44,640 nucleotides of DNA from Polyangium sp. 15x6 (lineage in GTDB: Bacteria; Myxococcota_A; Polyangia; Polyangiales; Polyangiaceae), in contig NZ_JASBQE010000098.1 in the NCBI RefSeq assembly GCF_029960785.1, forward strand, positions 1 to 44,640. Reading direction: 5' to 3'. Below, one piece after another: positions 3,065 to 34,649 of the stretch. Numbering within the stretch: position 1 is the stretch's first letter; each line of letters starts with the position of its first letter. The notes under the pieces are model-generated. The model had not been told where the DNA came from. It saw only the letters and a list, made by a program, of their open reading frames with translations, and made no database searches. Made by a program: the position numbers and the translations under genes.

Positions 3065-6000
3065 GTGGCGGACCCTTCGGGGCGCTTCCCCATACGTGAT
3101 CACGACACGCTGGCCGGCGGCTTTCCAGGAGGGCCGCGCGCGGGCTCGACGCTGCCCGGTCCCTTGCCCGACGGGATCGGGCCCGCGCTGCGCGCCGTCG
3201 AAAAGGGCGTGCGCATCGGCAAGTTCCCCATCGTCCGCGTGATGAGCACGGGCGGGATGGGCATCATCTACGAGGCCGTGCACCCCGTGCTCGGCTCGCG
3301 CGTCGTCATCAAGACCGTCCGCCCCGAGATGGCCGGCAAGGCCGCGATGGCCGAGCGTTTCCGCAACGAGGCGCTCGCCGCGAGCCGCATCCGCGACGAC
3401 CGCCTGCCGCAGATCTTCGACATCGACCGGCTCGACGACAACACGCAGTACATGGTGATGGAGTACCTCGAAGGCGAGGATCTCCAGCAGCGGCTCACGG
3501 ACGGGCCGCTCGCGCCGGCGTACGCGACGCGCATCGTCTTCGAGGTCCTCGAGGTCCTGAACAAGGTCCACAAGCTCGGCGTCATCCACCGCGACATCAC
3601 GCCGCGAAACATTTTCCTCGCGCGGAGCGAGGTGCTCGGCGAGATCCCGAAGCTGCTCGATTTCGGCGTCGCTCACTTCGTCGACGATCCGAACACGCGG
3701 CCCGGCGAGCTCGTGGGGTCGCCGTTCTACATGGCGATCGAGCAGGTCCGCGATCACGGCGCGATCGGGCCATGGACCGACGTCTTCGCCGCGGGCGTCG
3801 TGCTCTACGAGCTCGTCGCCGGCGTGCGCCCGTGGGCCGGATCGAGCCTCATCGGCTACCTCACGGCGCTCGCCGAGAGGCAGCCTCCGCGCCCGCTCGC
3901 CGCCGCCGCGCCGAACGTCCCGCCCGGCCTCGCCGAGGCCGTCATGCGCGCCATCCGCATCGAGCCGATCGAGCGGTTCCCCGACGCGGCGGCGTTCGCC
4001 CGCGCCCTCGAGCCCTTCGCCGCGGACCGCGCCGTGCTCTACGACCTGCGCCGCGCGGCGCAACGATCGAGCGTGCCCACGCGCCGCGCGAGCCTCGAGA
4101 ACGAGGCCACGGTCGCGATCACGCGCGGCAAGACGGTCTCGATCCCGCCGCCGCCGCCCGTGCCCAAGCTCGCGGGCATCCAGTCGAAGCTCGCGGGCCT
4201 CGGTCGCGCGCGCGCCGGGGCCGACGTCCCGCGGCCGAGCCTGCGCAAGGGCGAACGCAGGCACCTCACGATCGCCATGGTCGGCCTCGCGCTCGACGAG
4301 CCATGCGAGAGCACGCTCGGCGCCGAGGACATCGAGCAGATCGCCACGCAGATCTCCGAGGTCATCGGCCGCGCCTTCGAGACGGTCGGCGCGCGCGTCG
4401 ACAGGCCGCCGGGCGAGTCCTTGATGGCCGTCTTCGGGTATCACGCGTCGAGCGAGGACGACGCCGAGCGCGCCGTCGCCGCCGCGTTCGCCGCGCTCGA
4501 TCAGCGCCACGAGATCAACGCGACGCTCGCCGAGATCGGCTGCGCGCTCTCCATGCGCATCGGCGTCCACACGGGGTTCGTCACGCGCGGCGGCGACGCC
4601 ATGCTCACGGGCGAGAGCATCAACCTCGCCGAGATGCTCCAGCGCTCCGCGCCGCTCAACGCCGTCGTGGTCAGCCGCGAGACGCTCGATCTGCTCGGCG
4701 GCAGGTTCACCGAGCGGCACTTCGGGCCCATCTCGATGAAGGGCCGCGCGCGGCCGAGCGAGGCCTACGAGATCCTCGGCCCCTCCGAGGCCGAGGGCCC
4801 GCGCAAGAGCCGCGCCGGCGCCCCCGAGGATCGCCCCTTCGTCGGCCGCGACGCCGAGCTCTCCACGCTCGAAGGCCTCCTCGCCGAGGCGCGCGCGCGC
4901 GGCGGCTTGCACCTCGGGCTCGTCATGGGCGGGCCCGGCGTCGGCAAGTCGCGCCTCGTGCACGAGCTCTTGCGGCGCGTCGAGGCCGACGACGCGCGCT
5001 CGACCCTGGTCGTCCGGGCGCACCCGGCCTCCGCCGCGCCGTACGGCGCCTGGGTGGCCTTCCTTCGCCGCGTCTTTTTCCCGCCCGGCGCGACCATGAT
5101 CGACGCGCTGCAGACGACGACCGAGATCGGCGCCCTCGCCGCCGCGCTCGAGGATGCCCGCCGCAGCGAGCTCATCGCCAAGGCGCCCGTCGTCGACTTC
5201 CTCCTCGGCCTCGGCGGGCACGACCTCGTCGACCAGTACGGGCCCGACGGCTTCCAGAGCCGCGTGCAGCAGACGCTCACGCTCCTGCTCGAAGCCCTCG
5301 CGCGGAGGGCGAGCGCGCTCCGGCCCGGCAGGCCCGTCCTCTGCGTCCTCGACGACATGCACCGCGCCGACGCGACGAGCCTCGACCTCCTCGGCCGCGT
5401 CCTCGGCGGCTACCGCGCCGCGCTCCCCGTCGTCTTCCTCGTCACGAGCCGCGACGGCGAGATCGCCACGCTCCCCGAGCACGTCGCGGTCACGCGTGTC
5501 CCGCTCGCGCCCCTCACGGACGACGAGATCCGGGAGATCTCCGTCCACCTCGCCGGGGAGGAGCCCTCCGCGGACGTCGTGCGCCTGCTCGTCGAGCGGG
5601 CCGCGGGCAACCCCCTCTTCGCCGAGGAGCTCTCGCTGTCCTTGCGCGAGCAATGCATGGTCACGGCCGACGCCGCGTCCCTCCGGCGCTTCACGGTGCC
5701 CTCCTCGCTCGTCGGCATGCTCCTCGCGCGCCTCGATCGGCTGGAGCCCGAGCTCCGCACCACGCTTCAATACGCGAGCATCCTCGGCGTGGAGTTCAGC
5801 GCGGATCTTTTTGATGCCGTTGCATCTGCGCTCGGCGACGAGCGGACCTCGCAACGGCATCTTCACGAGCTCGTCCGCCGGGGTATCCTCTCGCACCGCA
5901 AGGAGCGCGGCGAGGAGACGTTCGCCTTCCGGCAGGTGCTCGCGCGGGACGCCATCTACGGCACGGTGCTCATGGACAACAAGCGCGTACTGCACCACCT

Positions 6001-7246
6001 CGCCGCCGCGTCCATCGAGCGCCTGCACGCCGGCAAGCTCGCGCCGCACCTGCCCGCGCTCTTCCATCACTACAGCCAGACCGACGAGGTCGAGCGCATC
6101 GTGCAGTATGCGCGCCTCACCGGCCGCCGCGCCGTGGCCCTCGGCGCGTTCGTCGACGCGGTCGAGGCGCTCATGACCGCGGAGACCTTGCGCAGCCGCC
6201 TCCGCGACGACGACCCGCTCGCGGCTGCCCGCGCGCTCTTCGACCTCGGCATCGCGCTCTTCTGGCTAGGCCGGTTCGACGAGGCGAGCGAGCGTGTCGA
6301 GCAGAGCCTCGCGCTCCTCAGCGACGACGCGCGCGAGGAGGCGCTCACGGTGCGCGCGCGCTGTCACCTCCTCTGCGCCGAGACCGCGCATCAGCGAGCG
6401 CGCTGGCCCGAGGCGGTCTCGCAGCTCGAACGGGCCGAGGAGCTCTTCCGGCGCGCGGGCAGGCCTTTCGACGCGGCGCAGGCGCTCTGCACGCGCGGCT
6501 TTCAGCTCCGCAGCCAGGGCAAGATCGAGGAGGGCCTCGCGCTCGCCGAGAAGGGCTGGGAGACGCTGCGCGGCTCGGACAACCTGCCCGCGGTCGTGCG
6601 GGCCGGCCACGACCTCGGCAATTTGCTGCGCGACGTGCGGCGGTACGACGCGGCGATCGAGGTGTTCGAGGCGGCGATCCGCGCCGGCGAAGAGCTCGCC
6701 CTCGAGGGGGATCCGCTCGCGGCCGTGTGGGGCCAGGTCGCGGCGCGCAGCGGCCGGGCGATGACGTTCGCCGCGATGGGTCGGCTCGACGAGGCGATCG
6801 AGGATCAGAAGGCGGTGCACGCGCTCGCGGTGCGCGAGGGCAACGTGCTGGCGCAGGCGCACTCGGGGTTTCACCTGGCGCATCACCTGCGCGAAAAAGG
6901 CGAGCTCCTCGAGGCCGAGGTGCAGGCGCTCCGCGCGCTCACGTTGTGCACCGAGCTCGGTTTGTCGGGGCGCGCCGTGAAGTGTCGGCTCCTCCTCGCG
7001 GACCTCGCGGAGAAGACGGGCCGCGGGTCCGAGGCGCTGGATCACGCGGAGGAGGCCGAGCGGCTGGCGCGGCCGATGGGCGGCGATCCGTGGATCGACG
7101 TGGTGGAGCGGCTCGCGGGCCTGCTCCGGGCGCGGGGACGATCGGACCGGATCGCTGCGCTCGCGGCCGACACCGCGTCGTATCTCGGGCCGTCGGCGGA
7201 CGCGTCGCTCCGGCAGCGGGTGGCGGCGCTCGTGGCGAAGGCTTGA
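3065..7246 (+). CDS. Ser/Thr kinase - degenerate adenylate cyclase - AAA ATPase - TPR signalling protein
   Basis: A 1393-residue cytoplasmic multidomain regulator of a type common in myxobacteria. The kinase domain (about 55-325) has a Gly-rich loop STGGMG, Lys83 (VVIK), catalytic loop HRDITPRN (175-182) and DFG (199-201). The usual HRDLKP lysine is Thr179, and APE reads AIE. A class III nucleotidyl-cyclase-like domain (about 400-575; ERRHLTIAM, LMAVFG, MRIGVHTG) lacks both metal-binding aspartates: the FAD motif reads MVGLA and the GD motif reads GES. A signalling ATPase follows: GRDAEL, Walker A GGPGVGKS near 622, Walker B VLCVLDD near 757. The C-terminal about 350 residues are TPR-like helices. 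The GTG start was chosen because GGAGGA sits 4 nt upstream; a TTG 15 nt earlier is the alternative. A repeat element starts 22 nt after the stop. Confidence 0.87.
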   Translation: MADPSGRFPIRDHDTLAGGFPGGPRAGSTLPGPLPDGIGPALRAVEKGVRIGKFPIVRVMSTGGMGIIYEAVHPVLGSRVVIKTVRPEMAGKAAMAERFRNEALAASRIRDDRLPQIFDIDRLDDNTQYMVMEYLEGEDLQQRLTDGPLAPAYATRIVFEVLEVLNKVHKLGVIHRDITPRNIFLARSEVLGEIPKLLDFGVAHFVDDPNTRPGELVGSPFYMAIEQVRDHGAIGPWTDVFAAGVVLYELVAGVRPWAGSSLIGYLTALAERQPPRPLAAAAPNVPPGLAEAVMRAIRIEPIERFPDAAAFARALEPFAADRAVLYDLRRAAQRSSVPTRRASLENEATVAITRGKTVSIPPPPPVPKLAGIQSKLAGLGRARAGADVPRPSLRKGERRHLTIAMVGLALDEPCESTLGAEDIEQIATQISEVIGRAFETVGARVDRPPGESLMAVFGYHASSEDDAERAVAAAFAALDQRHEINATLAEIGCALSMRIGVHTGFVTRGGDAMLTGESINLAEMLQRSAPLNAVVVSRETLDLLGGRFTERHFGPISMKGRARPSEAYEILGPSEAEGPRKSRAGAPEDRPFVGRDAELSTLEGLLAEARARGGLHLGLVMGGPGVGKSRLVHELLRRVEADDARSTLVVRAHPASAAPYGAWVAFLRRVFFPPGATMIDALQTTTEIGALAAALEDARRSELIAKAPVVDFLLGLGGHDLVDQYGPDGFQSRVQQTLTLLLEALARRASALRPGRPVLCVLDDMHRADATSLDLLGRVLGGYRAALPVVFLVTSRDGEIATLPEHVAVTRVPLAPLTDDEIREISVHLAGEEPSADVVRLLVERAAGNPLFAEELSLSLREQCMVTADAASLRRFTVPSSLVGMLLARLDRLEPELRTTLQYASILGVEFSADLFDAVASALGDERTSQRHLHELVRRGILSHRKERGEETFAFRQVLARDAIYGTVLMDNKRVLHHLAAASIERLHAGKLAPHLPALFHHYSQTDEVERIVQYARLTGRRAVALGAFVDAVEALMTAETLRSRLRDDDPLAAARALFDLGIALFWLGRFDEASERVEQSLALLSDDAREEALTVRARCHLLCAETAHQRARWPEAVSQLERAEELFRRAGRPFDAAQALCTRGFQLRSQGKIEEGLALAEKGWETLRGSDNLPAVVRAGHDLGNLLRDVRRYDAAIEVFEAAIRAGEELALEGDPLAAVWGQVAARSGRAMTFAAMGRLDEAIEDQKAVHALAVREGNVLAQAHSGFHLAHHLREKGELLEAEVQALRALTLCTELGLSGRAVKCRLLLADLAEKTGRGSEALDHAEEAERLARPMGGDPWIDVVERLAGLLRARGRSDRIAALAADTASYLGPSADASLRQRVAALVAKA

Positions 7247-19628: not shown

Positions 19629-20429
19629 CTATTCGACGTGCTTCCGAGGCGACAGCGCTGGAGGCGAGCCGGCCTGCATGTAGGTTCGCCGGAGCGCGTC
19701 GAGCAGAGCGGGACAGCCGGTCATCCGATCGACGGCCTCGTAGAAGGACTTCCCCGCCTCCCAGACGGCCTCCGCGGGGTACCCGGGGCCCGTCAGCTCG
19801 ACGTTGTGGGCCTTGCGGAGGCAAGAGTCCTCCCACGGCTTCCTGATCTCGTCGAGCAGGCGTCGATCCTGCGCCCAGTCGTCGAAAGCGCCGAGGTGCT
19901 TGCCGCAGCCGCGGGCGCAGATCCGCTTGGCGATCTCGGTATGCTGGTAAGTCCACGCCTCGATGCAGTAGAACGGCTCGATCGCGACGAGGCCACTCAT
20001 GATGCGCGCGAGCTCTTCGCCTCCGACGTTGCGCTCCGCTTTGATTTGCTGCTCGATTTTCAACCGGAATTCTGCGAAGTGGCGTCGCGCGTCGCTTCTG
20101 TCCCGGTCCCCGTAGCTCTCGTCGCCGTCGTAGTGGAGGAACACGAATCCGCTCGGCCGTCCGTCGTCGTCCTCGATCAGGAGCTGGCTGACGATGGCCC
20201 GCATGAGCTTGCGAATGTCCGACTCGTGCTCCTCCTTGGTGCTGCGCCAGAGGTTCATGCGCATGGCGCGCCGCCCGTCGCCTCGCTCTTCGTCGAACCG
20301 GAGTTTTTCCCTTTGCGTCTGCACCGCGGGGTCGACGATCTTGAGCATCGACTTGGAGAGCGCGACGACCACTGCGTGCGCGTGGTCCGACCCGTCTTCG
20401 CTCAAGGCGAGGATGCGGAGGACCGGCAT
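19629..20429 (-). CDS. Putative TOPRIM/DUF4276-like protein
   Basis: A 266-residue protein partnered with the upstream ATPase. The N-terminus VLRILALSEDGSDHAHAV places an acidic Glu11 where TOPRIM folds carry their glutamate, and HYDGDESYGDRD (99-110) has the spacing of a TOPRIM DxD pair (Asp101, Asp103). A later IEPFYCIEAWTYQHTE resembles the E-x-W region of DUF4276 proteins. TOPRIM nucleases partnered with ABC-like ATPases occur in anti-phage systems (OLD, Gabija, PARIS). Homology is judged by eye only and is weak. The ATG lies 1 nt after the ATPase stop, so translation is coupled. Confidence 0.5.
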   Translation of the reverse strand: MPVLRILALSEDGSDHAHAVVVALSKSMLKIVDPAVQTQREKLRFDEERGDGRRAMRMNLWRSTKEEHESDIRKLMRAIVSQLLIEDDDGRPSGFVFLHYDGDESYGDRDRSDARRHFAEFRLKIEQQIKAERNVGGEELARIMSGLVAIEPFYCIEAWTYQHTEIAKRICARGCGKHLGAFDDWAQDRRLLDEIRKPWEDSCLRKAHNVELTGPGYPAEAVWEAGKSFYEAVDRMTGCPALLDALRRTYMQAGSPPALSPRKHVE

Positions 20430-20430
20430 C

Positions 20431-21708
20431 TCACCAGAGCCCTTTTTGCCGGAGGACCTCGCTGACGGCCTGGATGCCGGTCCGATACGCGACGAAGAAG
20501 TCGTCCGCTTCCTCGTCGGTGAAGTTTTGCCAGATCATCTCGTCGCCTTCGAGCGAGCAGCGGATGAACCGCGATTTTACGGCTTCGCGGCTCTTGAAGC
20601 CCATGTGGTCGACGAGGAGGGGATTTTGACTCGCGAAGAACTTCTGGCGGCCTCGGGTCGCATCGACGCAGGCGGAGATCCAGTCGTAGTGCAGGCCGTC
20701 GACGAGCTCGTCGGCGACGACGGGGTTTGAAATGGTGAGGTAATAGAGGAACGAGAGCAGCCGCTTCTGGCCGAAGCTCAGGTGTTGTTCGCGGAGCTCT
20801 TCGCCGTTGTGGCGTCGGAAGAGGAAGGAGGGTCTCCCGAACAAGGCATAGGGCTTCTTTTCGGAGGCGTCTCGCTGGAGGAGTTCGAGGTGGAGCGATG
20901 CGCTCGAAAAACCGGTCAGATCCACGAACCGGCGCAAGAAAGGCAGGTTATGGTGCTCGACCGAGATGCGTTCGTCCGCGCTCTGGAGCGAATCGCCGAA
21001 TACTTTCACGAGCTCGGGGCTTGCAAGGGACCGCCCGAAGGGGCCTTCAAGAGTAGAGAGGGTCACGTCGCCATTGGGGCCAATTTGCTGGAAAAGTGTC
21101 AGGATCTCATCAAAGCGATGCACGTCCCCGGACATGGCTGCCGCCTCCGCGCTCTCACGAAATCGGGGTTGTGTGATTAAAAGGTTAGGGTAGCCAAGTA
21201 ATAGAATTAGATAGAATAGCGAATATCCACCTGCCCGGCTTCTGGCTCGCATGCCAAAGTGCCCGTCGATTCCGCGTTCGTCACCAGTCATGTCGCTGCT
21301 TCCAAGGCCCCCGGAGAGCTCTGCGCGAAATCGACGCTGGGGTGAATGCTCGAGCGCCGGCAGACTTTCTACACGCTCGGGGACGATGATCGGCTCCGAG
21401 TTCTTGACGGACCACTTCACCTCGACGGGCCCGAATGAAAGCCTCGCCTCCAGGTCGTAATCAAGGCCCTCAAAAGCCTTCAAATCCGCTCGAATCGTCG
21501 CCGCAATCAACTCCAGCAGCGTCGTCTTCCCCGTCCCATTCTTCCCGAGCAGGACGTTCCACTCGTCGTCGAACACGAGCTCCGTCGGCCGCACGTTCCG
21601 GAACTTGTTGATCTTGAGCCGCCGGAGCCGCGGCCCGGGGATTCCGTTCCCGCCGTCGGGGGCCTGTGTCGTCGTCTCCGGGGTCGCGTCGCTCATCGCG
21701 CGCAGCAT
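20431..21708 (-). CDS. AAA/ABC-type (SMC-like) ATPase
   Basis: A 425-residue cytoplasmic ATPase. The N-terminus is typical of the AAA_15/AAA_21 group: RLRRLKINKFRNVRPTELVF then GKNGTGKTT (Walker A, 55-63). Near residue 310 is a signature-like LSFGQKRLLSFLYYL, followed by NPVVADELVDGLHYDW, a Walker-B/D-loop region in which the usual DE-P is only partly conserved, and FFASQNPLLVDH, where related proteins have ATHSP. Such ATPases act as sensors in defence or repair modules. It is the first gene of a three-gene minus-strand operon and is divergent from a TrpD-like gene across the tandem-repeat spacer. The first in-frame ATG was used; a second lies four codons later. Confidence 0.85.
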   Translation of the reverse strand: MLRAMSDATPETTTQAPDGGNGIPGPRLRRLKINKFRNVRPTELVFDDEWNVLLGKNGTGKTTLLELIAATIRADLKAFEGLDYDLEARLSFGPVEVKWSVKNSEPIIVPERVESLPALEHSPQRRFRAELSGGLGSSDMTGDERGIDGHFGMRARSRAGGYSLFYLILLLGYPNLLITQPRFRESAEAAAMSGDVHRFDEILTLFQQIGPNGDVTLSTLEGPFGRSLASPELVKVFGDSLQSADERISVEHHNLPFLRRFVDLTGFSSASLHLELLQRDASEKKPYALFGRPSFLFRRHNGEELREQHLSFGQKRLLSFLYYLTISNPVVADELVDGLHYDWISACVDATRGRQKFFASQNPLLVDHMGFKSREAVKSRFIRCSLEGDEMIWQNFTDEEADDFFVAYRTGIQAVSEVLRQKGLW

Positions 21709-22127: not shown

Positions 22128-23246
22128 ATGCCCGACGAAGACAAGCTCCGCGCCTTCGGCCGCCTCGTGGTCAAGCTCCAGCAGCGCGAAGACCTCACCC
22201 GAGACGAAGTCCGCGAAGCCTACCGCCAGATCTGGCGCAACGAGCAGCCCGAGCTCCACCAGGGCGCCTTCATCGCCGCCCTCCGCGCCAAAGGCGAGTC
22301 CCAAGCCGAGCTCACCGGCGTCGTCGAGGCCTTTCAAGACGAGTGGCGCCTCTGGTTCCCCCACGTCGTCCGCTCGCCGGAGCCCCCCCTCAGCATCGCC
22401 GGCGTCGGCATGGACGCCCTCAAGACCATCAACGTCTCCAGCGGCGCCGCCGTCCTCGCCGCCGCCTGCGGCCTCTACGTCCACAAACCCGGCGCCCCCG
22501 CCCTCACCGGCGTCAGCGGCGCCGCCGACATGTTCGCCCTCTGGGGCGTCGACCTCGACGCCCCCGGCGAAGCCCAGGTGAAGAGCACCGAGACCTGCCG
22601 CCTAGGTTTCACCTCCGTCGTCGGACGCGCCTTCATGACGAGCGGTTTCGCCCGCGTGATCAGCCAGATCCGCATCGGCACGTCGTTCCACATCGGAGGC
22701 CCCCTCGTCCGCCACGTCGGCGAACGTCACAAGATCGCCGGCGTCCCCGAGCCCCGTCTCGTCCGCATCGTCTGCGAAGTGATGCGAGACCTCGGCTACG
22801 AGCGCGCCCTGGTCCCCTGCGCCGAATCCCGCGCCCACCCAGGTCGCTACCTGGACGAGATCGGAAACGTCGGCCCAACCCACGTGGCCGAGCTGCTCCC
22901 CGGCGGCGAGATCCGCGAGTACACGATCCGCCCCGAAGACGCCGGCCTGCGCGAAGCCCCCTTCGAAGCCATCGCCTCCCGAGGCACAGCCGAAGAAAAC
23001 GCCCGCATCCTGGCCCGCGCCCTCGGCGGGAAGGTCGAAGGCCCGATCGTCGACGTGCTGCTCCTGAACGCCGCCGCAAGCCTGAAGCTGATGGGCAAAG
23101 TCGACTCGCTCGCCAGAGGCGTGGATCAAGCACGTCTCGCGATCCACGAAGGCCGCGCAATCGCCCAGCTCCGCGCCCTGATCGAGTCACAAAACCCCGA
23201 GCCCGCCCGCGGTCGCGCCAAGCTCGAAACTTTGCTCGCAGACTAA
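22128..23246 (+). CDS. Divergent TrpD-like phosphoribosyltransferase-family protein
   Basis: A 372-residue soluble protein with the overall TrpD fold order: N-terminal helices with LTRDEVREAYRQIWRNE and QGAFIAALRAKGES; TINVSSGAAVLAAACGLYV; GAADMFALWGV; SFHIGGPLVRHV; and GPTHVAEL. However, the PRPP loop GTGGD reads GVGMD, the KHGNR loop reads KPGAPA, and the anthranilate-binding HP segment is missing. It is therefore unlikely to be an ordinary anthranilate phosphoribosyltransferase, and no other trp gene is nearby. It sits 87 nt before the leader-peptide gene on the same strand and could be cotranscribed with it. Function unassigned. Confidence 0.75.
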   Translation: MPDEDKLRAFGRLVVKLQQREDLTRDEVREAYRQIWRNEQPELHQGAFIAALRAKGESQAELTGVVEAFQDEWRLWFPHVVRSPEPPLSIAGVGMDALKTINVSSGAAVLAAACGLYVHKPGAPALTGVSGAADMFALWGVDLDAPGEAQVKSTETCRLGFTSVVGRAFMTSGFARVISQIRIGTSFHIGGPLVRHVGERHKIAGVPEPRLVRIVCEVMRDLGYERALVPCAESRAHPGRYLDEIGNVGPTHVAELLPGGEIREYTIRPEDAGLREAPFEAIASRGTAEENARILARALGGKVEGPIVDVLLLNAAASLKLMGKVDSLARGVDQARLAIHEGRAIAQLRALIESQNPEPARGRAKLETLLAD

Positions 23247-23333: not shown

Positions 23334-23639
23334 ATGACGAACAAGACCACCTACACGAAACACATCGAAATGTCGGCCGACGAGATGGCAAACCTCGCCG
23401 TCTGGGATCGCGCCGTCCTCCGAGCCTGGCAGGACCCCGAGTTCCGCCAAAAGCTGATCGACGACCCCAACGCAGTCCTGTCCGAGCTCGGCTTCAAAAT
23501 CCCCGCCGGCGTGCGCTTCGTCGTCGTCGAAAACACCCACGACCGCCGTCACATCGTCCTGCCGTCCGCTCCGTCCGGAGACGTGTCGGTGTTGCCCCTC
23601 GATACGTCGCCGCTGCACGACTACGATCCTGGGTTCTGA
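23334..23639 (+). CDS. NHLP-type (nitrile-hydratase-like leader) RiPP precursor candidate
   Basis: A 101-residue protein. The region AWQDPEFRQKLIDDPNAVLS then ELGFKIPAGVRFVVVENT and HIVLP is typical of nitrile-hydratase-alpha-like leader peptides (NHLP), known precursors of ribosomally made, modified peptides. After the VLP end of the leader comes a 24-residue tail (78-101), a possible core: no cysteine, four Asp (83, 90, 96, 98), plus Ser, Thr, His, Tyr and Pro. No Gly-Gly cleavage site is seen. The ATG at 23334 follows a GGGGAA box. Tailoring-type enzymes follow within 6 kb. It is too short to be nitrile hydratase itself. That the tail is modified is inference. Confidence 0.7.
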   Translation: MTNKTTYTKHIEMSADEMANLAVWDRAVLRAWQDPEFRQKLIDDPNAVLSELGFKIPAGVRFVVVENTHDRRHIVLPSAPSGDVSVLPLDTSPLHDYDPGF

Positions 23640-23645
23640 TGTGAA

Positions 23646-24000
23646 GCGTGGGCGCCGGGGTTTCACCCCGGTCCCCGACCAGGGGCTCTCCGCCCCTGGA
23701 CCCGGACCAGGCACGGCCTGGACCGAAGGCGGAGAAACCGCGCAACGCGCGGTTTCTCCGACGGGCCCGTGGCAAGACCCGAAGCCCTCGTTGCCAGTCG
23801 AGGCGGCAACGTTCCACCCTCGAACAGACACGTTCGCGCTGCGGTCTTGACTGGCAACGTCGTCGCCGGTCTTGCATCGGCCCGTTGCAAAAACCGCGCA
23901 ACGCGCGGTTTTTGCACCCTCGGTCCAGGCCGTGCCTGGTCCGGGGTGCAGGGGGCGGACAGCCCCCGCTGGGGCCCGGGGTGAAACCCCGGCGCTACGC
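23646..24000. repeat. Dispersed palindromic hairpin-mosaic element, copy C
   Basis: Same design as copies A and B, but stems differ by compensated changes: first stem CCGGGGT-TTC-ACCCCGG, GGACCAGGC-AC-GGCCTGGACC, and long hairpins at 23730-23760 and 23886-23916. Both long hairpins have perfect 14-bp arms and an AAC loop, with CCGCGC/GCGCGG replacing the CTGCGC/GCGCAG of other copies. It starts 7 nt after the leader-peptide stop. At the other end the family motif GCGTAGCGCCGGGG, on the minus strand, supplies the TAG stop codon of the S53 peptidase gene (23995-23997). Confidence 0.88.
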
Positions 24001-25773
24001 CTTCCTGCCTTGGCGCGTGACGAGCTCGATCAGGCGCGTCACGTCAGGCACCCCGAGGCCCGTCGCAGGGTCCCAGCCAGGGGCGGCCGAGTAGCCAGAG
24101 AGTTTGTGGATCACGGCCTTGCCGTGGGCGTTGAGGACGTTCATGGCGACGTCCGTGCTGCCCTCGGAGATCTCGCGGAAAGGGGCCGGGGTTTCCTTCC
24201 GGAGCGCGTAGAGCAGCGGGTTGACGAAGCCGACGCGTCCGAGTCCAGCTGCGCGCCGAGCTTGGTTCATGAGGGCCACGATGGCTGCCCAGATCGGCGC
24301 GGCCACGCTGGTGCCGCCCGCGTAGTCGACCCACTGTCCACACGCGACCGCCTGGTAGCCCTGCATCGTGAGCGGCTGGCCCGGCGCGCGCTGCACGGCC
24401 GATCCCGAGGCCATGAGCGCGACGTCAGGGAAGCCGCGGCCATAGGGGACGACGGCAGGTTCGCCCTCGCCGCGGGCATACCAGCCCTTCATCGCGTCGG
24501 TTTGCCATTTCGGAATGGGCACCTCGCGGCTGAACCCACCACTCGACGCGAGCCGCACGAAATGAAGCACGCGGCCGAGCCCAGGAGGCGGCGGCCCACT
24601 CCACGCGATCTCCGTGAGCGGCGCGCGACCCGTGATCATCGTGCCGCCGACCGAGAGCACACGTTCCTCCACAGCCGGGAAGACCCCGTGAGGCCAGGGT
24701 GCGTCCCCGACGTACCTCCCGTCCTTGATCGTGCGCGGCACGCCGTCGAAGGCGCCCCAGTCGCCCGCTGCGCTGATCACCGTGACGCCGATGGCCGCAG
24801 CTTGATCGAGCAGGCCACTCACGACGCGGCGCCCGTGCACTCGGTAGTAGCTGCGCTCGGGCGTGATCCAGCTCGTCGAGACGATCGTCGGCATGTTCTC
24901 GCGGTCGCCGATCACCTTGAGCAGGAACGTCACCCACGGATCGGCGATGACCATCGGATCGACGAAGTACACGAGGATCCGCGCGCCCGGCGCCATCGCG
25001 CCCACCCACTCGACGGTCATCGCGACCTCGAGCGTGTAGAGCTTGTTCGCGCTCGTGACCTTCGAGGGCCGTGATCCCACGTGGTACGTCTTGATCTCCG
25101 GCGGATGCGGGATCCCGTGGGCGTCCCAGAACGCGTGGAGATCGCTCTCTTCGAGGGCGCCGCCGAGCATCAAGAGCGCGATCGTCTCGCCGGACCCGTC
25201 GAGCTCGCTCATCGGCGGGAAGCGGTAGATCTGGCGCACGTCGGCGGGGGTCAAGCCGAAGCCGGGCTCGGGACGGCTCTCGCGCGCGCCTTCGAGCGTG
25301 GGGAACTGCATCGGGTGCTCGGAGCCCGCGTCGGCGACCATCGTGCTGCGCGCGCGGTTGCCGCTCTGCCGGACCTTCACGGACTGGACGTACCGCGCGA
25401 TCTGTCGCGGGATCGGCCATTCCATGGGCGTGAGCGCGCGCTCGTCCTTCTCCTTTTCGTCGAGCCAGCGCCGGCACTCGGCGCCGAACGTGCGGCCCAC
25501 GGCCTCCTTCGTGGTCTTCACGAAGATCGTCTGTCCCGAGACGCTGCGCACGTCCATGTGCGGCATGCCGTGCTCTTCGAGCCACTCGAGCACGGCGCGG
25601 CGCTCGTCCGAGGGGAGGACGACGAACTTGCGCAGCTCCTCGCGCTCGAGGTGCCGCGCGCGCTTGTGGTTGTCGGGGTGGCTCGCCGCCTCCGCCGCGC
25701 GCCGGATCGACTCCCGATCGTTCTCGTGCAGGACGAAGACGAGGGTCAGCTCGTCGCTAGCGTAAGCGTTCAA
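23995..25773 (-). CDS. S53-family (sedolisin/kumamolisin-like) peptidase with altered catalytic Asp
   Basis: A 592-residue protein without a signal peptide. Residues about 1-125 resemble the S53 prodomain; the peptidase domain spans about 170-585. Compared with kumamolisin, Glu (249, in LYTLEVAMTVEW), the oxyanion Asp (338, SAAGDWG) and nucleophile Ser (489, YAGGTSVAAP) are present. The catalytic Asp four residues after the Glu is Thr253. The C-terminal calcium-site region (STDVAMN; GYSAAPGWDPATGLG) is kept. It may have low or unusual activity. The TTG start overlaps the halogenase stop (TTGA), so the two are translationally coupled. Its stop codon lies inside a repeat element. A role in cutting the nearby leader peptide is possible but unproven. 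Confidence 0.88.
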   Translation of the reverse strand: MNAYASDELTLVFVLHENDRESIRRAAEAASHPDNHKRARHLEREELRKFVVLPSDERRAVLEWLEEHGMPHMDVRSVSGQTIFVKTTKEAVGRTFGAECRRWLDEKEKDERALTPMEWPIPRQIARYVQSVKVRQSGNRARSTMVADAGSEHPMQFPTLEGARESRPEPGFGLTPADVRQIYRFPPMSELDGSGETIALLMLGGALEESDLHAFWDAHGIPHPPEIKTYHVGSRPSKVTSANKLYTLEVAMTVEWVGAMAPGARILVYFVDPMVIADPWVTFLLKVIGDRENMPTIVSTSWITPERSYYRVHGRRVVSGLLDQAAAIGVTVISAAGDWGAFDGVPRTIKDGRYVGDAPWPHGVFPAVEERVLSVGGTMITGRAPLTEIAWSGPPPPGLGRVLHFVRLASSGGFSREVPIPKWQTDAMKGWYARGEGEPAVVPYGRGFPDVALMASGSAVQRAPGQPLTMQGYQAVACGQWVDYAGGTSVAAPIWAAIVALMNQARRAAGLGRVGFVNPLLYALRKETPAPFREISEGSTDVAMNVLNAHGKAVIHKLSGYSAAPGWDPATGLGVPDVTRLIELVTRQGRKA

Positions 25774-27560
25774 GCCGAGGCCCCGGGCGCGAGCTTTACA
25801 AATCCTTTTTTCGCGGCGGCGCGTACGACGGAGAGCGTCGCGGCGCGGATGGCGTCGGGCGACGCGTATCCCTCGGGCAGGAGCCGCGGGGCCTCGGCGA
25901 GCAGCGTCGCGACCTCGCGGTGGCGGCCCATGGCGTCGACGACCGGGCCGAGCACGGGCGCGATCTTGCTCGGCGCCGCGTGCGTGCGATGCGTGAAGTC
26001 GGCGTCGTCGCTCACGAGATCGTAGAAGACGTCGAGCTCACCCGTCGGTTTGCCCTCGCTCGCCATGGGCTCGGTGCGCAGCGCCAGCCGGAAGGGCGCG
26101 AGGTGCTCGATCGCATGCTTCGGCAGCTCCGCGGGCGGCGGCAAGCCGTCGTCGTAGAACACGTTGTACACGTCGCCCTGGAGGCCCGCGATGCCCGCGA
26201 CGAGCGGGATCACCGTGTCGTCCGTGACGGCGCGGAGCGTCGGGAAGAACCCGGCGCTCGCCATGGTGAAGGCCTGCCGATCGTCGACCGCGAGCTTGCC
26301 CGAGGCGTTCACGAGCCGCTGCGCCTCCCACCACCACGACGGCGCCGCGCGGTTGTTCCCGTAGAAGTAGCGCGCGAGCCGGAGGAACGAGCCCGCCTCG
26401 CCGCGGATGTAGTCGGCGTACGCGCGCCAGAGCGCGTCCTCGGGCAGCTCTTTGCGTGCGCGCGCGGTGCGGTACGTGTACGCCGCGCGATGACCGCTCT
26501 GCATCGCGAGCGTCACGCCCGACGAGAGGATCGGATCGACGAAGATCGCCGCGTCTCCGGCCGTGGCCCAGCCCGGTCCCGTGGGGCTCTTCGCCCACGA
26601 CGACCAGTCGCGGGTGACGGCGATGCGCTTGCCTCCGCCGATGAAATCGTCGCGGTTGGTGGCGCGCGAGAGCAGGCCGCGCACCTCGGGGCAGCCCTGG
26701 ATCGTCTCGTGGTAAAACGACTCGGGATCCTGGTTCTGGAGCGCGTCCTTGAAGTGCGTCGTGTTCGTCACGACGCCGACGCTGAGGAGGTCTCGAGCGA
26801 CGGGGATGTACCAGATCCAGCCTTTGTCGACCGAGCAGATGAACACGTTCGTCCGGTCGTGCGTGCCCCGGTAGAGGATCTTCCACTCGGCGCCGGACCA
26901 GTAGCCGTAGACCGCGTAGTTGTTCATGTGCGGATCGAAGACGCGGCCGCCCGGCGTGAAGCGCGTGCCTTGCCCGCTCGCGTCGAGCACGAACGAGGTC
27001 TCGATCGTGCCCTCGCGGCCCTGATCGTCCTCCCAGTCGACGCCCGTGACGCGGCCCTCTGCGTCCTTGTGGATGGTTCGTCCGCGCGTCCCTTCGCGCA
27101 CGTCGGCGCCGAAGTCCCGCGCGCGGTTCATGATCATGTGGTCGAACTCGGCGCGCCGGACGTTGAAGGCGTTGAACGTCTCGTCGCGCTCTTCGGGCCG
27201 GCGCAGGAGCTTCGAAAAATCCTGGCCGAGCACGTTGAGCACCTCGGCGCCTTCGTGGAGCCGGACGTCGCCGAGCTTGAGGTAGTCGGCGTCCCAGGGC
27301 GTCCGATCGCGGCCCCACACGAAGGTGATGCCCATCTTGCGGATGAAGCCGGCGCGGCCGAGATCGTCGTAGATCCCGAGGTCACGCAGGACCGGGTTCA
27401 GCGCGGGGATGAGGGATTCGCCGATGTGGTAGCGCGGGAAGCGCGCCTTCTCGAGGACCGTGACCGAGAGGTTCGGCTCGTACTTTTTGAGGATGGCGGC
27501 GAAGGTGCTGCCCGCAGGACCTCCGCCGAGGACGACCACGTCGCGATGCTCGATGCCCAT
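25770..27560 (-). CDS. Flavin-dependent halogenase (FADH2-dependent)
   Basis: A 596-residue enzyme. The FAD-binding GGGPAG lies at 12-17 and IGESLIPALN at 46-55. The halogenase signature WxWxIP is present as WIWYIP (248-253), and the second signature FxxPxxSxG as FVDPILSSG (340-348). Lys75, in GFIRKMGITFVWG, is in the position of the catalytic lysine of phenol-type flavin halogenases. Such enzymes use HOCl made at FADH2 to chlorinate or brominate aromatic rings; the substrate may be an aromatic residue on the leader-peptide tail (Tyr97 or His95) or a free compound. First gene of a two-gene operon with the S53 peptidase, divergent from the haem-oxygenase-like gene. Confidence 0.88.
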   Translation of the reverse strand: MGIEHRDVVVLGGGPAGSTFAAILKKYEPNLSVTVLEKARFPRYHIGESLIPALNPVLRDLGIYDDLGRAGFIRKMGITFVWGRDRTPWDADYLKLGDVRLHEGAEVLNVLGQDFSKLLRRPEERDETFNAFNVRRAEFDHMIMNRARDFGADVREGTRGRTIHKDAEGRVTGVDWEDDQGREGTIETSFVLDASGQGTRFTPGGRVFDPHMNNYAVYGYWSGAEWKILYRGTHDRTNVFICSVDKGWIWYIPVARDLLSVGVVTNTTHFKDALQNQDPESFYHETIQGCPEVRGLLSRATNRDDFIGGGKRIAVTRDWSSWAKSPTGPGWATAGDAAIFVDPILSSGVTLAMQSGHRAAYTYRTARARKELPEDALWRAYADYIRGEAGSFLRLARYFYGNNRAAPSWWWEAQRLVNASGKLAVDDRQAFTMASAGFFPTLRAVTDDTVIPLVAGIAGLQGDVYNVFYDDGLPPPAELPKHAIEHLAPFRLALRTEPMASEGKPTGELDVFYDLVSDDADFTHRTHAAPSKIAPVLGPVVDAMGRHREVATLLAEAPRLLPEGYASPDAIRAATLSVVRAAAKKGFVKLAPGASA

Positions 27561-27656
27561 GATTCGGCCTCGATTATCACGCGGCGCGCGCGCCTGGAAG
27601 CTTCGCGCCCGATGGGGTATCCGTGCTCTCCGAGGGCCGGGGAGGAGTCGCCGATC

Positions 27657-28490
27657 GTGCAGGGTTCCGACATCACGTGGGCGCGCATCGCGGAAGGAAA
27701 GATCGTGGTCGCGACGAGCACGCGGGCCTTCCTGCACGAGGACGCGCTGGCCTTCGGAGGGCCGTTCTCGGTGCCGCCCGAGGGGCCGGTGAGCCTCGCG
27801 GCGACGCGGAACCTGCTCGACGGCGCGGTGGGCGTCGCGCAACGCGAAGGGCCCGCGCCGCCGCGGCGCGAGCTCACGCTCACGGGCTGGATCCATCGCC
27901 TCGCGGGGTACTTTCATACGACCCACGCGACGCCGCCGCTCATGATCGAGGCCGCGGCGCGCTTCGAAGCCGAGGGGCGCGCGGCGCTCGCGGCGTGGGC
28001 GCACGAGAAGTCGCGCGACGAGCACGGGCACGATGCGCTCGCGCTGCGAGATCTCGCGTCGCTCGGCTACGACGCCCGCGCGCTCGTCGCCGCGCACGTG
28101 CCGGAGACCGCGGCGGCGCTCGTGGATTTCTTCACGTCGCTCGTGCGTGGACCAGGAGATCCCGCGCGGTGCGTGGGGTACGCGTTCGCGCTCGAGCGCC
28201 TCGCCGCGACGCGCAGCGCGGCCGAGGTGCGCGCCGTGCAAGCCGTGCTCCCGCGCGGCGTCGACGCGACGCGGTGCCTGCGCGTGCACAGCGCCGCGGG
28301 CACCGACGCGGATCACGTCGAGGACATCGTCACGCTCGCGGCCGGCCTCTCGCATGGAGAGCGCGAGGCGATCACGCGGGCCGCTTACGAGACCACCCGG
28401 ATCGGGAAGCGCGCGCGCGGCGACGCCGCTCTCCGCGACGACGATCTCTCCACGATGTTCGAGCCGTTTCGCGTCGCGCTCGAAACTTGA
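27657..28490 (+). CDS. Haem-oxygenase-like oxidase (HDO/TenA-PqqC-type) candidate
   Basis: A 277-residue all-helical protein. HDO-type (diiron) metal-ligand patterns are visible: AHEKSRDEHGHDALALRDL (115-133, with E117, E122, H123/H125), FALER (E180) and VHSAAGTDADHVED (H211, D217, H220). Such proteins oxidise amines or fatty-acid and amino-acid substrates, in several RiPP and siderophore pathways. The GTG at 27657 has GGAGGAG 9 nt upstream and is preferred over an ATG at 27612. The assignment rests on motif spacing only. It is divergent from the halogenase and is followed by the beta-hydroxylase 54 nt later. Confidence 0.62.
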   Translation: MQGSDITWARIAEGKIVVATSTRAFLHEDALAFGGPFSVPPEGPVSLAATRNLLDGAVGVAQREGPAPPRRELTLTGWIHRLAGYFHTTHATPPLMIEAAARFEAEGRAALAAWAHEKSRDEHGHDALALRDLASLGYDARALVAAHVPETAAALVDFFTSLVRGPGDPARCVGYAFALERLAATRSAAEVRAVQAVLPRGVDATRCLRVHSAAGTDADHVEDIVTLAAGLSHGEREAITRAAYETTRIGKRARGDAALRDDDLSTMFEPFRVALET

Positions 28491-28543
28491 CACGAGGGGC
28501 CCGCCTCGGCTGCGATGCTCGGCCTCTCGACAGGGAAGAGCGG

Positions 28544-29248
28544 ATGTACCAGAGGCGTCACGTCCCGAGCCCGCGCGCGCTTTCGAAGGCCTATCGTTTC
28601 CTGCGGCTTCCGCTCGCGATCGACGTCGCGTCGATCGTCGCCGAGATCGAGGCGACGGACATCACGTGGCTGCCGAGCCAGTGGAAGTGGCACCTCGGCA
28701 CCTCGTTCTGCATCCTGCGCGGCGGGCAAGAGCGAGGCTGGCCCGGCAGTCGTCTCACGAGCGGAGGCGGCATCGATGCGCCTGCGCTCGAGGCCCTTCC
28801 GCGCCTGCGCGAGCTGCTCGACACGGCGTTCCCCGCGCGCCCCGTCTCCGCGTGGCTCGGCTTGAGCCCGCCGGATTCGCGCATCCATCTGCACGTCGAC
28901 AACACGCCCCACTGGGACGAGCACCACCGCTTCCACGTCCCGCTGATCACGACGCCGGCCGCGCGCCTCTGCGTCGCGGGTCGTTTCCTGCATCTGCCCG
29001 CGGGCACCGCGTGGGCCTTCAACAACAGCGTGCCGCACGGCGCGGAAAACCTGGGTCCCCCGCGCATTCACCTCATGGTCGATCTGCCGCCCGCGCCGGC
29101 GGTCGAGGCTCTCGTCGCCGCGGGCACGCCGGAAGAAGGCGCGAAAGATCCCGAGGCGATCGCCCGTTTGTCGCGGGATCCGATGGAGTCGATCCCCGAG
29201 GCGATGAAGTCGGACGCGTATCTGCTCTGGCGACTCGCGCAGCAGTAG
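28544..29248 (+). CDS. Aspartyl/asparaginyl beta-hydroxylase-like 2OG dioxygenase
   Basis: A 234-residue protein. It shows the family order HVDNTPHWDEHHRFHVPL (HxD metal site), FLHLPAGTAWAFNNSVPHG (second metal His) and NLGPPRIHLMVDL (2-oxoglutarate Arg). Family members hydroxylate the beta carbon of Asp or Asn in proteins or peptides. The Asp-rich tail of the nearby leader peptide is an attractive substrate (inference). The start ATG has a GGGAAGAG box. It lies 53 nt after the haem-oxygenase-like gene, on the same strand. Confidence 0.8.
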   Translation: MYQRRHVPSPRALSKAYRFLRLPLAIDVASIVAEIEATDITWLPSQWKWHLGTSFCILRGGQERGWPGSRLTSGGGIDAPALEALPRLRELLDTAFPARPVSAWLGLSPPDSRIHLHVDNTPHWDEHHRFHVPLITTPAARLCVAGRFLHLPAGTAWAFNNSVPHGAENLGPPRIHLMVDLPPAPAVEALVAAGTPEEGAKDPEAIARLSRDPMESIPEAMKSDAYLLWRLAQQ

Positions 29249-29509: not shown

Positions 29510-30163
29510 ATGGCGAGATACCTATTCCCAAAGTGGTCCAACCGGGTGCTGCCGATGGTGGCCGCCTTCGTACTTGCTCCGCTTGGCACCGCGGCTGCCG
29601 GCGGCCTTTGGTACTACGGTACCAACAAGCACGTCGAAGTTGGCTACACGCCCACACAACCCGTGGACTACAGCCACAAGCTGCATGCCGGCGATCTCGG
29701 CATCGACTGCCGTTACTGTCACACGGCCGTCGACAAGAGCGCCCAAGCGTCCGTCCCTCCCACCGAGACGTGCATGAACTGCCACTCGAAGGTGAAGACG
29801 GATAGTCAAAAGCTTCTTCCCGTGCGGGAGAGCTACGCCACGGGGAACCCCATCCCCTGGGTGCGCGTCCACAACCTGGCCGACTACGCGTACTTCAACC
29901 ACCAGGCCCACGCGACCGCAGGAGTGGCTTGCCAGAGCTGCCACGGCCGCGTCGACCAGATGATCAAGGTGAGTCAGGCGCAGCCCCTGTCCATGGGCTG
30001 GTGCCTCGACTGTCATCGGAACCCCGAGCCGAACCTCCGGGATCCGAAGGACATCACCAAGATGGTCGACGAGACCGTGCCGGCGAGCGTCGCGAACCTC
30101 GCGGCTCCGCCCTCGCAGCGCAAGGTCTCGCCTCCCGTTCACTGCTCGGGGTGCCACCGATGA
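29510..30163 (+). CDS. actA: Alternative complex III subunit ActA, pentahaem cytochrome c
   Basis: A 217-residue periplasm-facing membrane-anchored cytochrome, the haem subunit of alternative complex III (quinol:electron-acceptor oxidoreductase). A single N-terminal membrane helix (about 11-35) is followed by five CxxCH haem sites: CRYCH 67-71, CMNCH 88-92, CQSCH 141-145, CLDCH 165-169 and CSGCH 212-216. Five haems are normal for ActA. It passes electrons from the ActB cluster toward ActE and the oxidase. The stop overlaps the actB start by 4 nt (ATGA). Confidence 0.95.
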   Translation: MARYLFPKWSNRVLPMVAAFVLAPLGTAAAGGLWYYGTNKHVEVGYTPTQPVDYSHKLHAGDLGIDCRYCHTAVDKSAQASVPPTETCMNCHSKVKTDSQKLLPVRESYATGNPIPWVRVHNLADYAYFNHQAHATAGVACQSCHGRVDQMIKVSQAQPLSMGWCLDCHRNPEPNLRDPKDITKMVDETVPASVANLAAPPSQRKVSPPVHCSGCHR

Positions 30164-33140
30164 AGCGAGCTCCGTATCCCATCGAGCCGGATACGTCCGG
30201 AAAGAACTACTGGCGGAGCCTCGACGAGTTCGAGAAGTCACCGTCGTTCGCAGAGGACCTCACGCGCGAGTTCCCGGAGGGCGCCGCAGAGCCTCCGCAA
30301 GGGACGAACCGCCGGCAGTTCCTCTCCATCATGGGCGCGTCGATGGCCCTCGGCGGTCTCGCGGCGTGCCGCAGGCCCGAAGAGGTCATCGTCCCCTACA
30401 CGCGCGCGCCGGAAGAGGTCATCCCGGGCAAGCCGCTCTTCTTCTCGACCGCGATGCCGATCCTCGGCACCGCGATCGGCCTCGTCGTCGAGACGCACGA
30501 GGGCCGGCCGACGAAGATCGAGGGCAACCCGCGGCACCCCGAGAGCCTCGGCGCGACGAACTCGTTCGTGCAGGCGTCGGTGCTCGACCTCTACGATCCC
30601 GACCGCAGCCAGAGCCCGCAAGAGAAGGGCCTGGCGCGGACGTGGGACGAGGCGAACGCCTTCCTGCGCAAGCTCGGCGACGACGCGAAGAAGAAGAACG
30701 GCAAGGGCCTCGCGGTCCTCGTCGAGGATCATCGCTCGCCCACGCTCGCGGCGCAGCTCGACGCGCTCCTCAAGCTGATGCCCGACGCGCGCGTCGTGCG
30801 GTACGAGGCGTTCGGCCGGGACGTTCAGGAAGAGGGCGCGCGGATCGCCTTCGGCAAGGCGCTCGTGCCCGTCTACGACATCGGCGAGGCCGACGTCGTG
30901 GTCTCGCTCGACGCGGACTTCCTGCTGAACGAAGGCAGCGTCGTGAAGAACGTGCGCGCCTTCGCGGCGCGGCGGGACCCGGACCGCAAGGACAAACCGA
31001 TGAACCGGTTCTACGCGATCGAGAGCATCTTCTCGGTCACGGGGACGAGCGCGGATCATCGGCTGCGCCTTTCGAGCCGCAAGATCCCGGCGATCGCGTA
31101 CGCGCTCGCGCAGGAGATCGCCGCGGCCGCGAAGGTGGAGCTGCCCGCGGACATCACGTCCGCGCTCGGCGGCGCGCCCGCGCTCGATCCCGACGCGGCG
31201 AAGCTGGTCAAGGCCATCGCCGGCGATATCGCCAAGCGCAACGGCGCGGTCGCGATCGTCGTGGGTCGCAAGCAGCCCGCGGCCGTGCACGCGCTCGTGC
31301 ACGCGGTGCATCGCGCGATCGGCGCCGTCGGCAAGACGGTGAAGCTCGTAAAACCCCTCGACGAGGTGAAGGGCGGCCCGGCAGAGATCGCGGCGCTCGC
31401 GAAGGACCTCCAGGCGGGCACGGTCGACACGCTCCTCGTGCTCGGCGGCAACCCCGTCTTCAACGCGCCCGCGGACGTCCGCGACGCCATCGGCAAGGCG
31501 AAGACGCTGGTCCACGTGGGCACGCACGTCGACGAGACGGGCAAGGCCGCGGCGTGGCACCTGAACCGCGCGCACACGCTGGAGAGCTGGGGCGACGTCC
31601 GGTCCGAAGACGGCACGGGCGCGATCATCCAGCCGCTCATCGCGCCGATGTACGGCGGCAAGACGGACGCGGAGATCCTCGAGGTCTTCCTCGGCGGCAC
31701 GCGCAAGGGCTACGACCTCGTCCGCGCGAGCTGGCGTGGGGCGCAGTCGCTCGTCGCCGACTTCGAGCGTGACTTCCGGCGCGCGCTGCACGACGGCATC
31801 TGGAAGGACAGCGCCTTCCCGGCCGAGACGGCGGATCTCGACGCGGCGAAGGTCGGCGCGGCGATCAAGGCGCAGAAGGCCGTGGCGCCGAAGGGCGACC
31901 TCGAGGTCGTCTTCGACCCGGATCCGCACACGTGGGACGGCCGGTACGCGAACAACGGCTGGCTCCAGGAGATGCCGGACCCGATGGCCAAGCTCACCTG
32001 GGGCAACGTCGCGTCCCTCTCGCCGAAGACGGCGAAGGGGCTCGGCGTGGTCGACGGGGATCTGGTCACGGTGAGCGCGAACGGGGCGTCGGTGACGTTG
32101 CCCGCGCTCGTGGCGCCGGGCCTGGCGGACGGGACGATCCTCGTCACCGTCGGTCAAGGCCGGACCGTGGTCGGTCGGGTCGGCAAGAACGTCGGCGTCG
32201 ATACGGGGGCGCTGCGCGCGAGCGCGGCCTTCCACGTCGCGGACGGCGTGTCGATCACGAAGGCGGGCGGCTCGACGAAGCTCTCGCGGACGCAGGAGCA
32301 CTTCCTCACGGAGGGCCGGCCGCTCGTTCTCGAGGCGTCGTTCGCCAAGTACCAGGCGAACCCGCAGGTCGTCCCGCCGCCGAAGAAGTACCTGAGCCTC
32401 TTCGAGGAGCGGAAGTACGACCAAGGTCACGCCTGGGGCATGACGATCGATCTCGCGGCCTGCGTTGGCTGCAACGCTTGCAGCATCGCCTGCCAGGCGG
32501 AGAACAACATCCCGATCGTCGGCGCCGAAGGCGTGCAGAGGTCGCGCGAGATGCACTGGCTCCGCATGGATCGGTACTTCGAGGGCGACCTCGAGAACCC
32601 GACCAGCGTCTCGCAGCCGATGATGTGCGTGCACTGCGAGAATGCGCCGTGCGAAGAGGTCTGCCCGGTCGCGGCGACGACGCACAGCCCCGAGGGGCTG
32701 AACGAGATGACCTACAACCGGTGCATCGGCACCAAGTACTGCGCGAACAACTGCCCCTTCAAGGTTCGTCGGTTCAACTACCACGACTACACGAAGGACA
32801 CGATCGAGCAGCACAAGATGCAGATGAACCCCGACGTCACGGTGCGAAGCCGAGGCGTCATGGAGAAGTGCACGTACTGCGTGCAGCGCATCAATCGCGC
32901 GAAGATCTCCGCGAAGGCGGAGGGGCGCGACCGTCTCCGTGACGGCGAGGTGGTGACGGCGTGCCAGGCGGCTTGCCCGGCGCAGGCGATCCACTTCGGC
33001 GACCTCAACGACAAGCAGAGCGAGGTGGCCAAGCGCGCCGCCGGGCCGCGTGGATACAAGCTCCTCGAAGAGCTCAACATCCGCCCGCGCACGTCGTACC
33101 TCGCCAAGATCAAGAACCCCAACCCTGAGCTGGAGGGGGC

Positions 33141-33144
<4 letters not shown>
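30160..33144 (+). CDS. actB: Alternative complex III subunit ActB, molybdopterin-like/iron-sulfur
   Basis: A 994-residue subunit. A twin-arginine-like N-terminus ([17 protein letters not shown]) precedes a molybdopterin-oxidoreductase-like domain, which in ActB proteins normally lacks the cofactor. The C-terminal ferredoxin-like domain (about 765-960) has Cys motifs [37 protein letters not shown] and CTYC...CQAACP for its Fe-S clusters. It receives electrons from quinol through ActC/ActF and hands them to ActA haems. It overlaps actA and actC by ATGA. Confidence 0.95.

Positions 33145-34641
<1,497 letters not shown>

Positions 34642-34649
<8 letters not shown>

Follow-up and report, generated by a model that had tools for sequence, protein, structure and literature searches.

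The DNA analysed here (the window) is the 44,640-nucleotide stretch at positions 1 to 44,640 of contig NZ_JASBQE010000098.1 from Polyangium sp. 15x6 (RefSeq assembly GCF_029960785.1, 13.4 Mb in 275 contigs), which carries a gene cassette around a short peptide, probably the precursor of a ribosomally synthesised and post-translationally modified peptide (RiPP). On the forward strand, a TrpD-like paralogue of the anthranilate phosphoribosyltransferase family (372 residues, 22128–23246) ends 87 bp before the gene for a peptide of 101 residues (23334–23639). This peptide joins a nitrile hydratase-like leader peptide (NHLP) to a conserved C-terminal region, the putative core, consisting of the last 18 residues (23583–23636, ending SPLHDYDPGF) and marked out by the tail alignment and codon differences given below. 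Beyond a spacer formed by a palindromic repeat element with inverted repeats (23652–23995), the reverse strand encodes an S53 (sedolisin/kumamolisin)-like protein with a Pro-kumamolisin domain and without the catalytic Asp (23995–25773), overlapping by 4 nt the gene for a flavin-dependent halogenase-like enzyme of the CndH/CmlS group (596 residues, 25770–27560; PF04820, 94.3 bits). The forward strand then continues with a haem-oxygenase-like dimetal oxidase (HDO; 277 residues, 27657–28490; PF14518, 31.6 bits, cut-off 28.9) and a 2-oxoglutarate/Fe dioxygenase of the Asp/Asn hydroxylase family (234 residues, 28544–29248; PF05118, 37.9 bits, cut-off 22.6), hereafter the hydroxylase. A preliminary description made from the letters alone had named the peptide, S53, halogenase, HDO and hydroxylase genes and placed them in three transcription units; all five are present where it put them and in the families it gave, and the strand layout bears out the three units. 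It overlooked the TrpD-like gene, which is part of the gene set. It had also described the repeat as separating the peptide from the enzymes. The repeat exists, as a nested palindrome with two exact 21-nt copies, but the gap between the peptide and S53 genes ranges from 125 to 360 bp across six Polyangium genomes; the spacer is therefore a lineage-specific insert, and a role as functional separator is ruled out.

A full-length peptide (E<=1e-8) was found in 6 of 144 order-wide genomes, all of them Polyangium, and the order TrpD, peptide, S53, halogenase, HDO, hydroxylase is held in all six. Synteny within the genus is weak evidence, because the cytochrome c7 and NrfD genes immediately downstream (29510–34649 and on), presumably an alternative complex III-like operon, are kept equally well. 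In other genera the genes occur in different orders, at separate loci or as fusions, and the halogenase, HDO and tail nevertheless stay in the same genomes. G012 and G030 (genus g47, of another family) carry, on one strand, the HDO, a 51-residue frame, the halogenase (about 56% identical) and a fusion in which the S53-like and hydroxylase domains form a single protein; their 51-residue peptide has no NHLP match and ends APLTDVNFGF. Minicystis rosea has the HDO, a short peptide with the same ending, the halogenase and an S53-like gene. KLAP118 (family f38) has the TrpD-like gene adjoining the HDO and a short peptide ending APLSDFEPGF, together with the halogenase, and a hydroxylase about 7 kb from the latter. 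In five other f38 genomes the TrpD-like gene again adjoins the HDO and an NHLP peptide (ending LGDANPGF, PLSDENPGF, PLTDENAGF or PLTDDNAGF), on a stretch apart from the halogenase, which lies with the hydroxylase in G190 and G322, with the hydroxylase and S53 in G368 and G281, and with S53 in G352, where the hydroxylase is on another contig. G190 and G322 have the S53 gene beside that of the peptide, and in these two genomes the split is clear, with several kb of flank visible on both sides; for G281, G352 and G368 it could partly reflect assembly breaks, given that the contigs are short (4–23 kb). The HDO and peptide genes overlap by 4–8 nt in G352, G368, G281 and KLAP118 and lie 20–105 nt apart in G322, G190, G070, Minicystis and g47, compared with 4 kb in the window. 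Named strains with the gene set are Polyangium fumosum DSM 14668 and Minicystis rosea DSM 24000. The halogenase tree joins KLAP118 to g47 and Minicystis (92/94, below the strict mark), a grouping that follows leader type and not family and that the HDO tree does not recover.

Co-inheritance was assessed in a phylum sample of 377 Myxococcota genomes from 234 genera, with presence set at E<=1e-90 for the halogenase, E<=1e-30 for the HDO and E<=2.2e-12 for the tail model. The halogenase occurs in 12 of the 377 genomes, the HDO in 13 (all 12 halogenase genomes and G331), and the tail-model matches fall in exactly the 12 halogenase genomes. Nine of these 12 supplied rows of the tail model; their own matches follow from that, and only absence elsewhere is informative. 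No tail of comparable score was found in the other 365 genomes, where the next match has an E value of 0.0056; the fifteen weak matches between 0.0056 and 0.05 are roughly the chance expectation (377 x 0.05 = 19). The very small chance values obtained for the overlap of these genome sets overstate independence, because the genomes are related. The halogenase profile was built solely from Polyangium and g47, and all seven genomes newly found with it (six of f38, including KLAP118, and Minicystis) carry the peptide; they were found at 54–58% identity, the range seen for this enzyme family between genera. The peptides of the five NHLP-type f38 genomes also match the whole window peptide, at E 6.6e-15 to 1.7e-18. 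In all, the gene set is present in 6 of the 234 sampled genera. Three distant halogenase matches lie outside Myxococcota (27–28% identity; L079–L081), and no match to the flavoenzyme was found on plasmids at 1e-60. The preliminary description had linked peptide and enzymes through proximity, had proposed a check of synteny in other myxobacteria and had named peptides lying mostly apart from the enzymes as an outcome that would count against the link. That outcome is not what the 365 halogenase-free genomes gave; the tail and homologous enzymes persist together despite rearranged orders, split loci and fusion, and the functional link is thus backed independently by other genera. The HDO relative of G331 (44%; L120 9256–10593) is followed by a protein of 148 residues, a different HDO context. 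Weaker paralogues of the halogenase, HDO and hydroxylase were set aside; halogenase paralogues (36–40%) in G134 and G127 have neighbours common to both (L058 6632–11483, L059 6061–11789).

The window peptide scores 57.2 bits with TIGR03793 (cut-off 50.9) and contains no Cys, as the preliminary description had it. The five f38 peptides score 35.8–45.2 bits with this model, below the cut-off, so that an NHLP leader is seen in four genera, above the cut-off in the window and below it in f38; the four short-leader peptides, from four genera, have no NHLP match. Five more stretches resembling the NHLP part occur in the window's own genome (E 6e-8 to 0.0024; contigs C204, C50 and C227), three of them clustered on C204. 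Across an alignment of 11 peptides from 8 genera, the tails share the C-terminal motif PLxDx(N/D/E)xGF, G070 lacking the GF. Counting from the C-terminus, Asp −6 is present in 11 of 11 tails, position −4 is N, D or E and position −8 Leu or Val in all 11, and Pro −9, Gly −2 and Phe −1 are each kept in 10. Among 5638 stop-ended frames of at least 40 residues in the loci examined, 16 end in D.[NDE].GF and all 16 are cassette peptides (L077 and L082 are one record, counted twice); the motif is absent from the halogenase-paralogue loci L058–L060. The peptide is under purifying selection (ratio of nonsynonymous to synonymous substitution, raw dN/dS, of about 0.16 across six Polyangium genomes), and constraint is strongest in the last 10 codons, with 0 nonsynonymous against 19 synonymous pairwise differences by raw counting in the same genomes. 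Since the tail occurs on a short non-NHLP leader in four genera, the constant and probably modified part of the precursor is the tail and not the NHLP leader.

Conservation also narrows the candidate target residues. Position −5, the Tyr of the window peptide, is variable (Y, A, E, D, V, F or L), which rules out Tyr −5, a residue type that the preliminary description had pointed out in the tail, as a general halogenation target. The sole conserved aromatic residue of the tails is the last Phe; a halogenase acting on a common aromatic must therefore use this Phe, or the enzyme is in effect no halogenase. Pro −9 is unlikely to be an obligatory hydroxylation target, given that it is Leu in G352, which has the hydroxylase.

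The closest solved structures to the flavoenzyme are 3e1t (5.3e-51), which we take to be CndH, and CmlS (3i3l, 1.3e-42). With this family it shares GGGPAG within a kept FAD motif, (V/I)DP(I/V)LS(S/T)G, WIWY(I/F)P in 10 of 10 rows (FP instead of IP at the end in g47, Minicystis and KLAP118; the G352 sequence is cut at its N-terminus), and Lys75 in all 9 rows that cover the position, presumably that of the catalytic Lys of flavin halogenases. Unlike CndH and CmlS it is tied to a peptide gene, and it scores far under the CmlS equivalog cut-off (185 of 900 bits); models of LodB- and QhpG-type maturation enzymes also match it (93 and 130 bits). Judged by these motifs, it is a putative halogenase of the CndH/CmlS group.

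For the HDO, the residues E122, H125, E180, H211, D217 and H220 are invariant in 11 of 11 rows, and these histidines and carboxylates fit the 3H/3C ligand set given in PMC13108848; their assignment as metal ligands is our own and putative. An AlphaFold2 model (pLDDT, its confidence score, 81.9) matches 3dde with Z 18.4 and HrmI with Z 14.9. The first match is of unknown function and the rows below it are close in Z, so the fold search shows the superfamily only and no reaction is read from it. Like UndA, HrmI, CADD, BesC and AetD (PMC13108848), the protein combines a haem-oxygenase fold with 3H/3C-like invariant residues. It differs from them in being 6–18% identical to the solved chains listed and in its company, 12 of the 13 sampled genomes with a window-type HDO also having the tail peptide, with G331 as the exception.

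The enzymes might instead make a small molecule, with the peptide as a carrier, scaffold or regulator that docks via its tail into the flavoenzyme or HDO. The tail is conserved in the manner of a docking motif and offers no conserved aromatic except the last Phe, the TrpD-like enzyme is of a small-molecule enzyme type, and the closest solved flavoenzymes, 3e1t and CmlS, reportedly act on carrier-bound small substrates. Against this, four genera have an NHLP leader of the kind that RiPP precursors typically carry (the f38 peptides being below the cut-off), and we consider such a pathway unlikely.

The hydroxylase keeps its facial triad (HVDN...H plus R in 9 of 9 rows), and the only solved relative found for its family profile is the L-proline cis-4-hydroxylase 4p7w (1.8e-8); its structure prediction was set aside (pLDDT 36.6). 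The S53-like protein matches kumamolisin at 2e-40 (family profile), resembles kumamolisin and sedolisin in its Pro-kumamolisin domain and, by sequence, in its catalytic fold, and keeps the nucleophile Ser and the Glu in 9 of 9 rows. The kumamolisin triad is E78/D82/S278 (PMC5935664). The residue equivalent to D82 is T, S, A or G in all 9 rows of the S53-like family, and the oxyanion Asp is Asn in G190 and G322. The S53 peptidase of the preliminary description thus belongs to the family it was given but lacks an intact Ser-Glu-Asp triad, and in two genomes, unlike kumamolisin and sedolisin, it is fused to the dioxygenase. An active S53 leader peptidase in an ordinary proteusin pathway with tailoring enzymes would account for the kept Ser and Glu and for the protease that a RiPP pathway is expected to include. 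This is improbable in view of the replaced Asp and the oxyanion change, of the four genera that have no NHLP leader, and of the absence of the terms S53, sedolisin and kumamolisin from the text of a review on RiPP leader proteases (PMC10885120).

The TrpD-like protein falls just short of the TIGR01245 equivalog cut-off (193.1 bits against 199.05) and is distinct from the second TrpD-like gene of its own genome (677 against 128 bits). It carries GVGMD and HK(P/V)GAP in place of the usual phosphoribosyl pyrophosphate and anthranilate motifs of TrpD, which suggests another acceptor.

Across genomes the genes are inherited together, with a tail that stays conserved as leaders, gene order and accessory genes vary. 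We regard it as likely that they encode a RiPP-type pathway acting on an almost invariant C-terminal tail, with the HDO and the flavoenzyme as its steadiest pair. The precursor, with an NHLP leader here and a short non-NHLP leader elsewhere, would present the tail P-L-x-D-x-(N/D/E)-x-G-F to the enzymes, which would recognise it through whichever leader is present. The HDO, as a diiron enzyme, and the CndH/CmlS-type flavoenzyme would then act on the tail as their presumed substrate. Most genera add the 2-oxoglutarate dioxygenase and the S53-like protein, the latter more likely as a docking or unusual processing partner than as an ordinary protease, and many the TrpD-like phosphoribosyltransferase paralogue. 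With low confidence, the flavoenzyme might act on the C-terminal Phe or close to it, by analogy with SrpI and its C-terminal Trp, and the dioxygenase on the invariant Asp −6 or on Asx −4. Of the preliminary interpretation, the link between peptide and enzymes is retained; a general Tyr target is not supported, and the NHLP leader is not the defining feature.

Several observations weigh against such a pathway. The tail model is partly self-derived, which makes presence in the nine contributing genomes uninformative, and the searched genomes are all Myxococcota and mutually related. G331 has the HDO but neither halogenase nor tail (the tail looked for within 19 kb), and the halogenase was not found in G070 (64% complete and outside the sample of 377), which has the HDO and a tail; its short peptide ends APVTDLNVIL, without GF. 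Minicystis gave no hydroxylase match at E<=1e-15, although it keeps Asp −6, and KLAP118 gave no S53 match at E<=1e-60; G012, G030 and Minicystis lack the TrpD paralogue and have only a TrpD of 100–136 bits. To these come the replaced Asp of the S53-like protein and a window peptide without GG. Among the 14 Pfam-annotated window genes there is neither a transporter nor a standard RiPP protease, and no C39 or C1A protease, the rest of the window and the genome lying outside this search. That unrelated peptide and enzyme genes are neighbours by chance, as the equally syntenic cytochrome/NrfD genes of Polyangium might suggest, can practically be dismissed given that the genes regroup with the same tail outside Polyangium and that halogenase and tail are found in the identical 12 of 377 genomes.

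Taken singly, NHLP peptides, HDOs and the flavin halogenation of an NHLP peptide are already known. The nearest comparison is the srp proteusins, in which the flavin brominase SrpI acts on an NHLP peptide at its C-terminal Trp, the structured NHLP half being dispensable (PMC10858898); the same paper remarks that a rigid NHLP could have become joined to an ordinary sequence of leader type. Both systems pair an NHLP leader with a flavin-dependent halogenase or its like; the C-terminal aromatic target there has a counterpart in the conserved C-terminal Phe here, and the NHLP half dispensable there is naturally without a match in four genera here. The present set differs in a flavoenzyme closest to 3e1t and CmlS (SrpI being compared by description only), in its HDO, 2-oxoglutarate dioxygenase, S53-like and TrpD-like partners, and in tails that contain no Trp and are conserved between families. 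Pyrroloquinoline quinone (PQQ) and mycofactocin are peptide-derived cofactors that likewise combine a short precursor, an invariant motif and oxidative enzymes, and PqqC has the haem-oxygenase fold (1otw in the HDO fold search). Their motifs are unrelated to the one described here, however, and the annotated genes of the window include no radical SAM gene. Titles and abstract openings in the literature yielded neither the combined set nor the exchange of leaders, the S53-hydroxylase fusion or an S53 family without the Asp; this search had thin coverage of subscription journals and is no proof of absence. There is a fair chance that the pathway represents a new RiPP class.

The constancy of the tail suggests one conserved molecule over a fast-evolving antibiotic. 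D-x-(N/D)-x-G is similar to a metal-binding loop, and beta-hydroxy-Asp is known to coordinate metals, hence the idea of a metal ligand. Tentatively, and as a possibility short of even, we propose a new class of peptide-derived product in which HDO and flavoenzyme act on an invariant D-x-(N/D/E)-x-G-F, the leader is exchangeable and the S53-like protein is a pseudoprotease presenting the peptide; the product would perhaps be a metal ligand, redox cofactor or signal. The leader exchange itself may have gone from NHLP to short leader or the reverse, with enzymes and core kept.

Elsewhere in the window, an AAA_21-type ATPase lies beside a protein of 266 residues without Pfam match (19629–21708), which might be a defence pair. 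In KLAP118, G352 and G190 the gene immediately upstream of the TrpD-like one encodes a very large protein, and these proteins cluster with one another (L082 13608–17684, L101 5775–9911, L102 2723–7753); the window relative (3065–7246) is about 15 kb off.

Here, we describe a defined gene set, present in named strains, whose HDO and flavin halogenase-like enzyme both appear to target a single short tail of ribosomal origin. Since this tail occurs in nature on precursors with and without NHLP, the purpose of the proteusin leader can be tested directly, a question raised by the folded half that PMC10858898 describes as dispensable for SrpI. The S53-like family, Asp-less throughout and joined to the dioxygenase in two genomes, suggests that a protease fold has taken on a new role. 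If the proposed pathway is correct, its product may be a conserved physiological molecule rather than an antibiotic.

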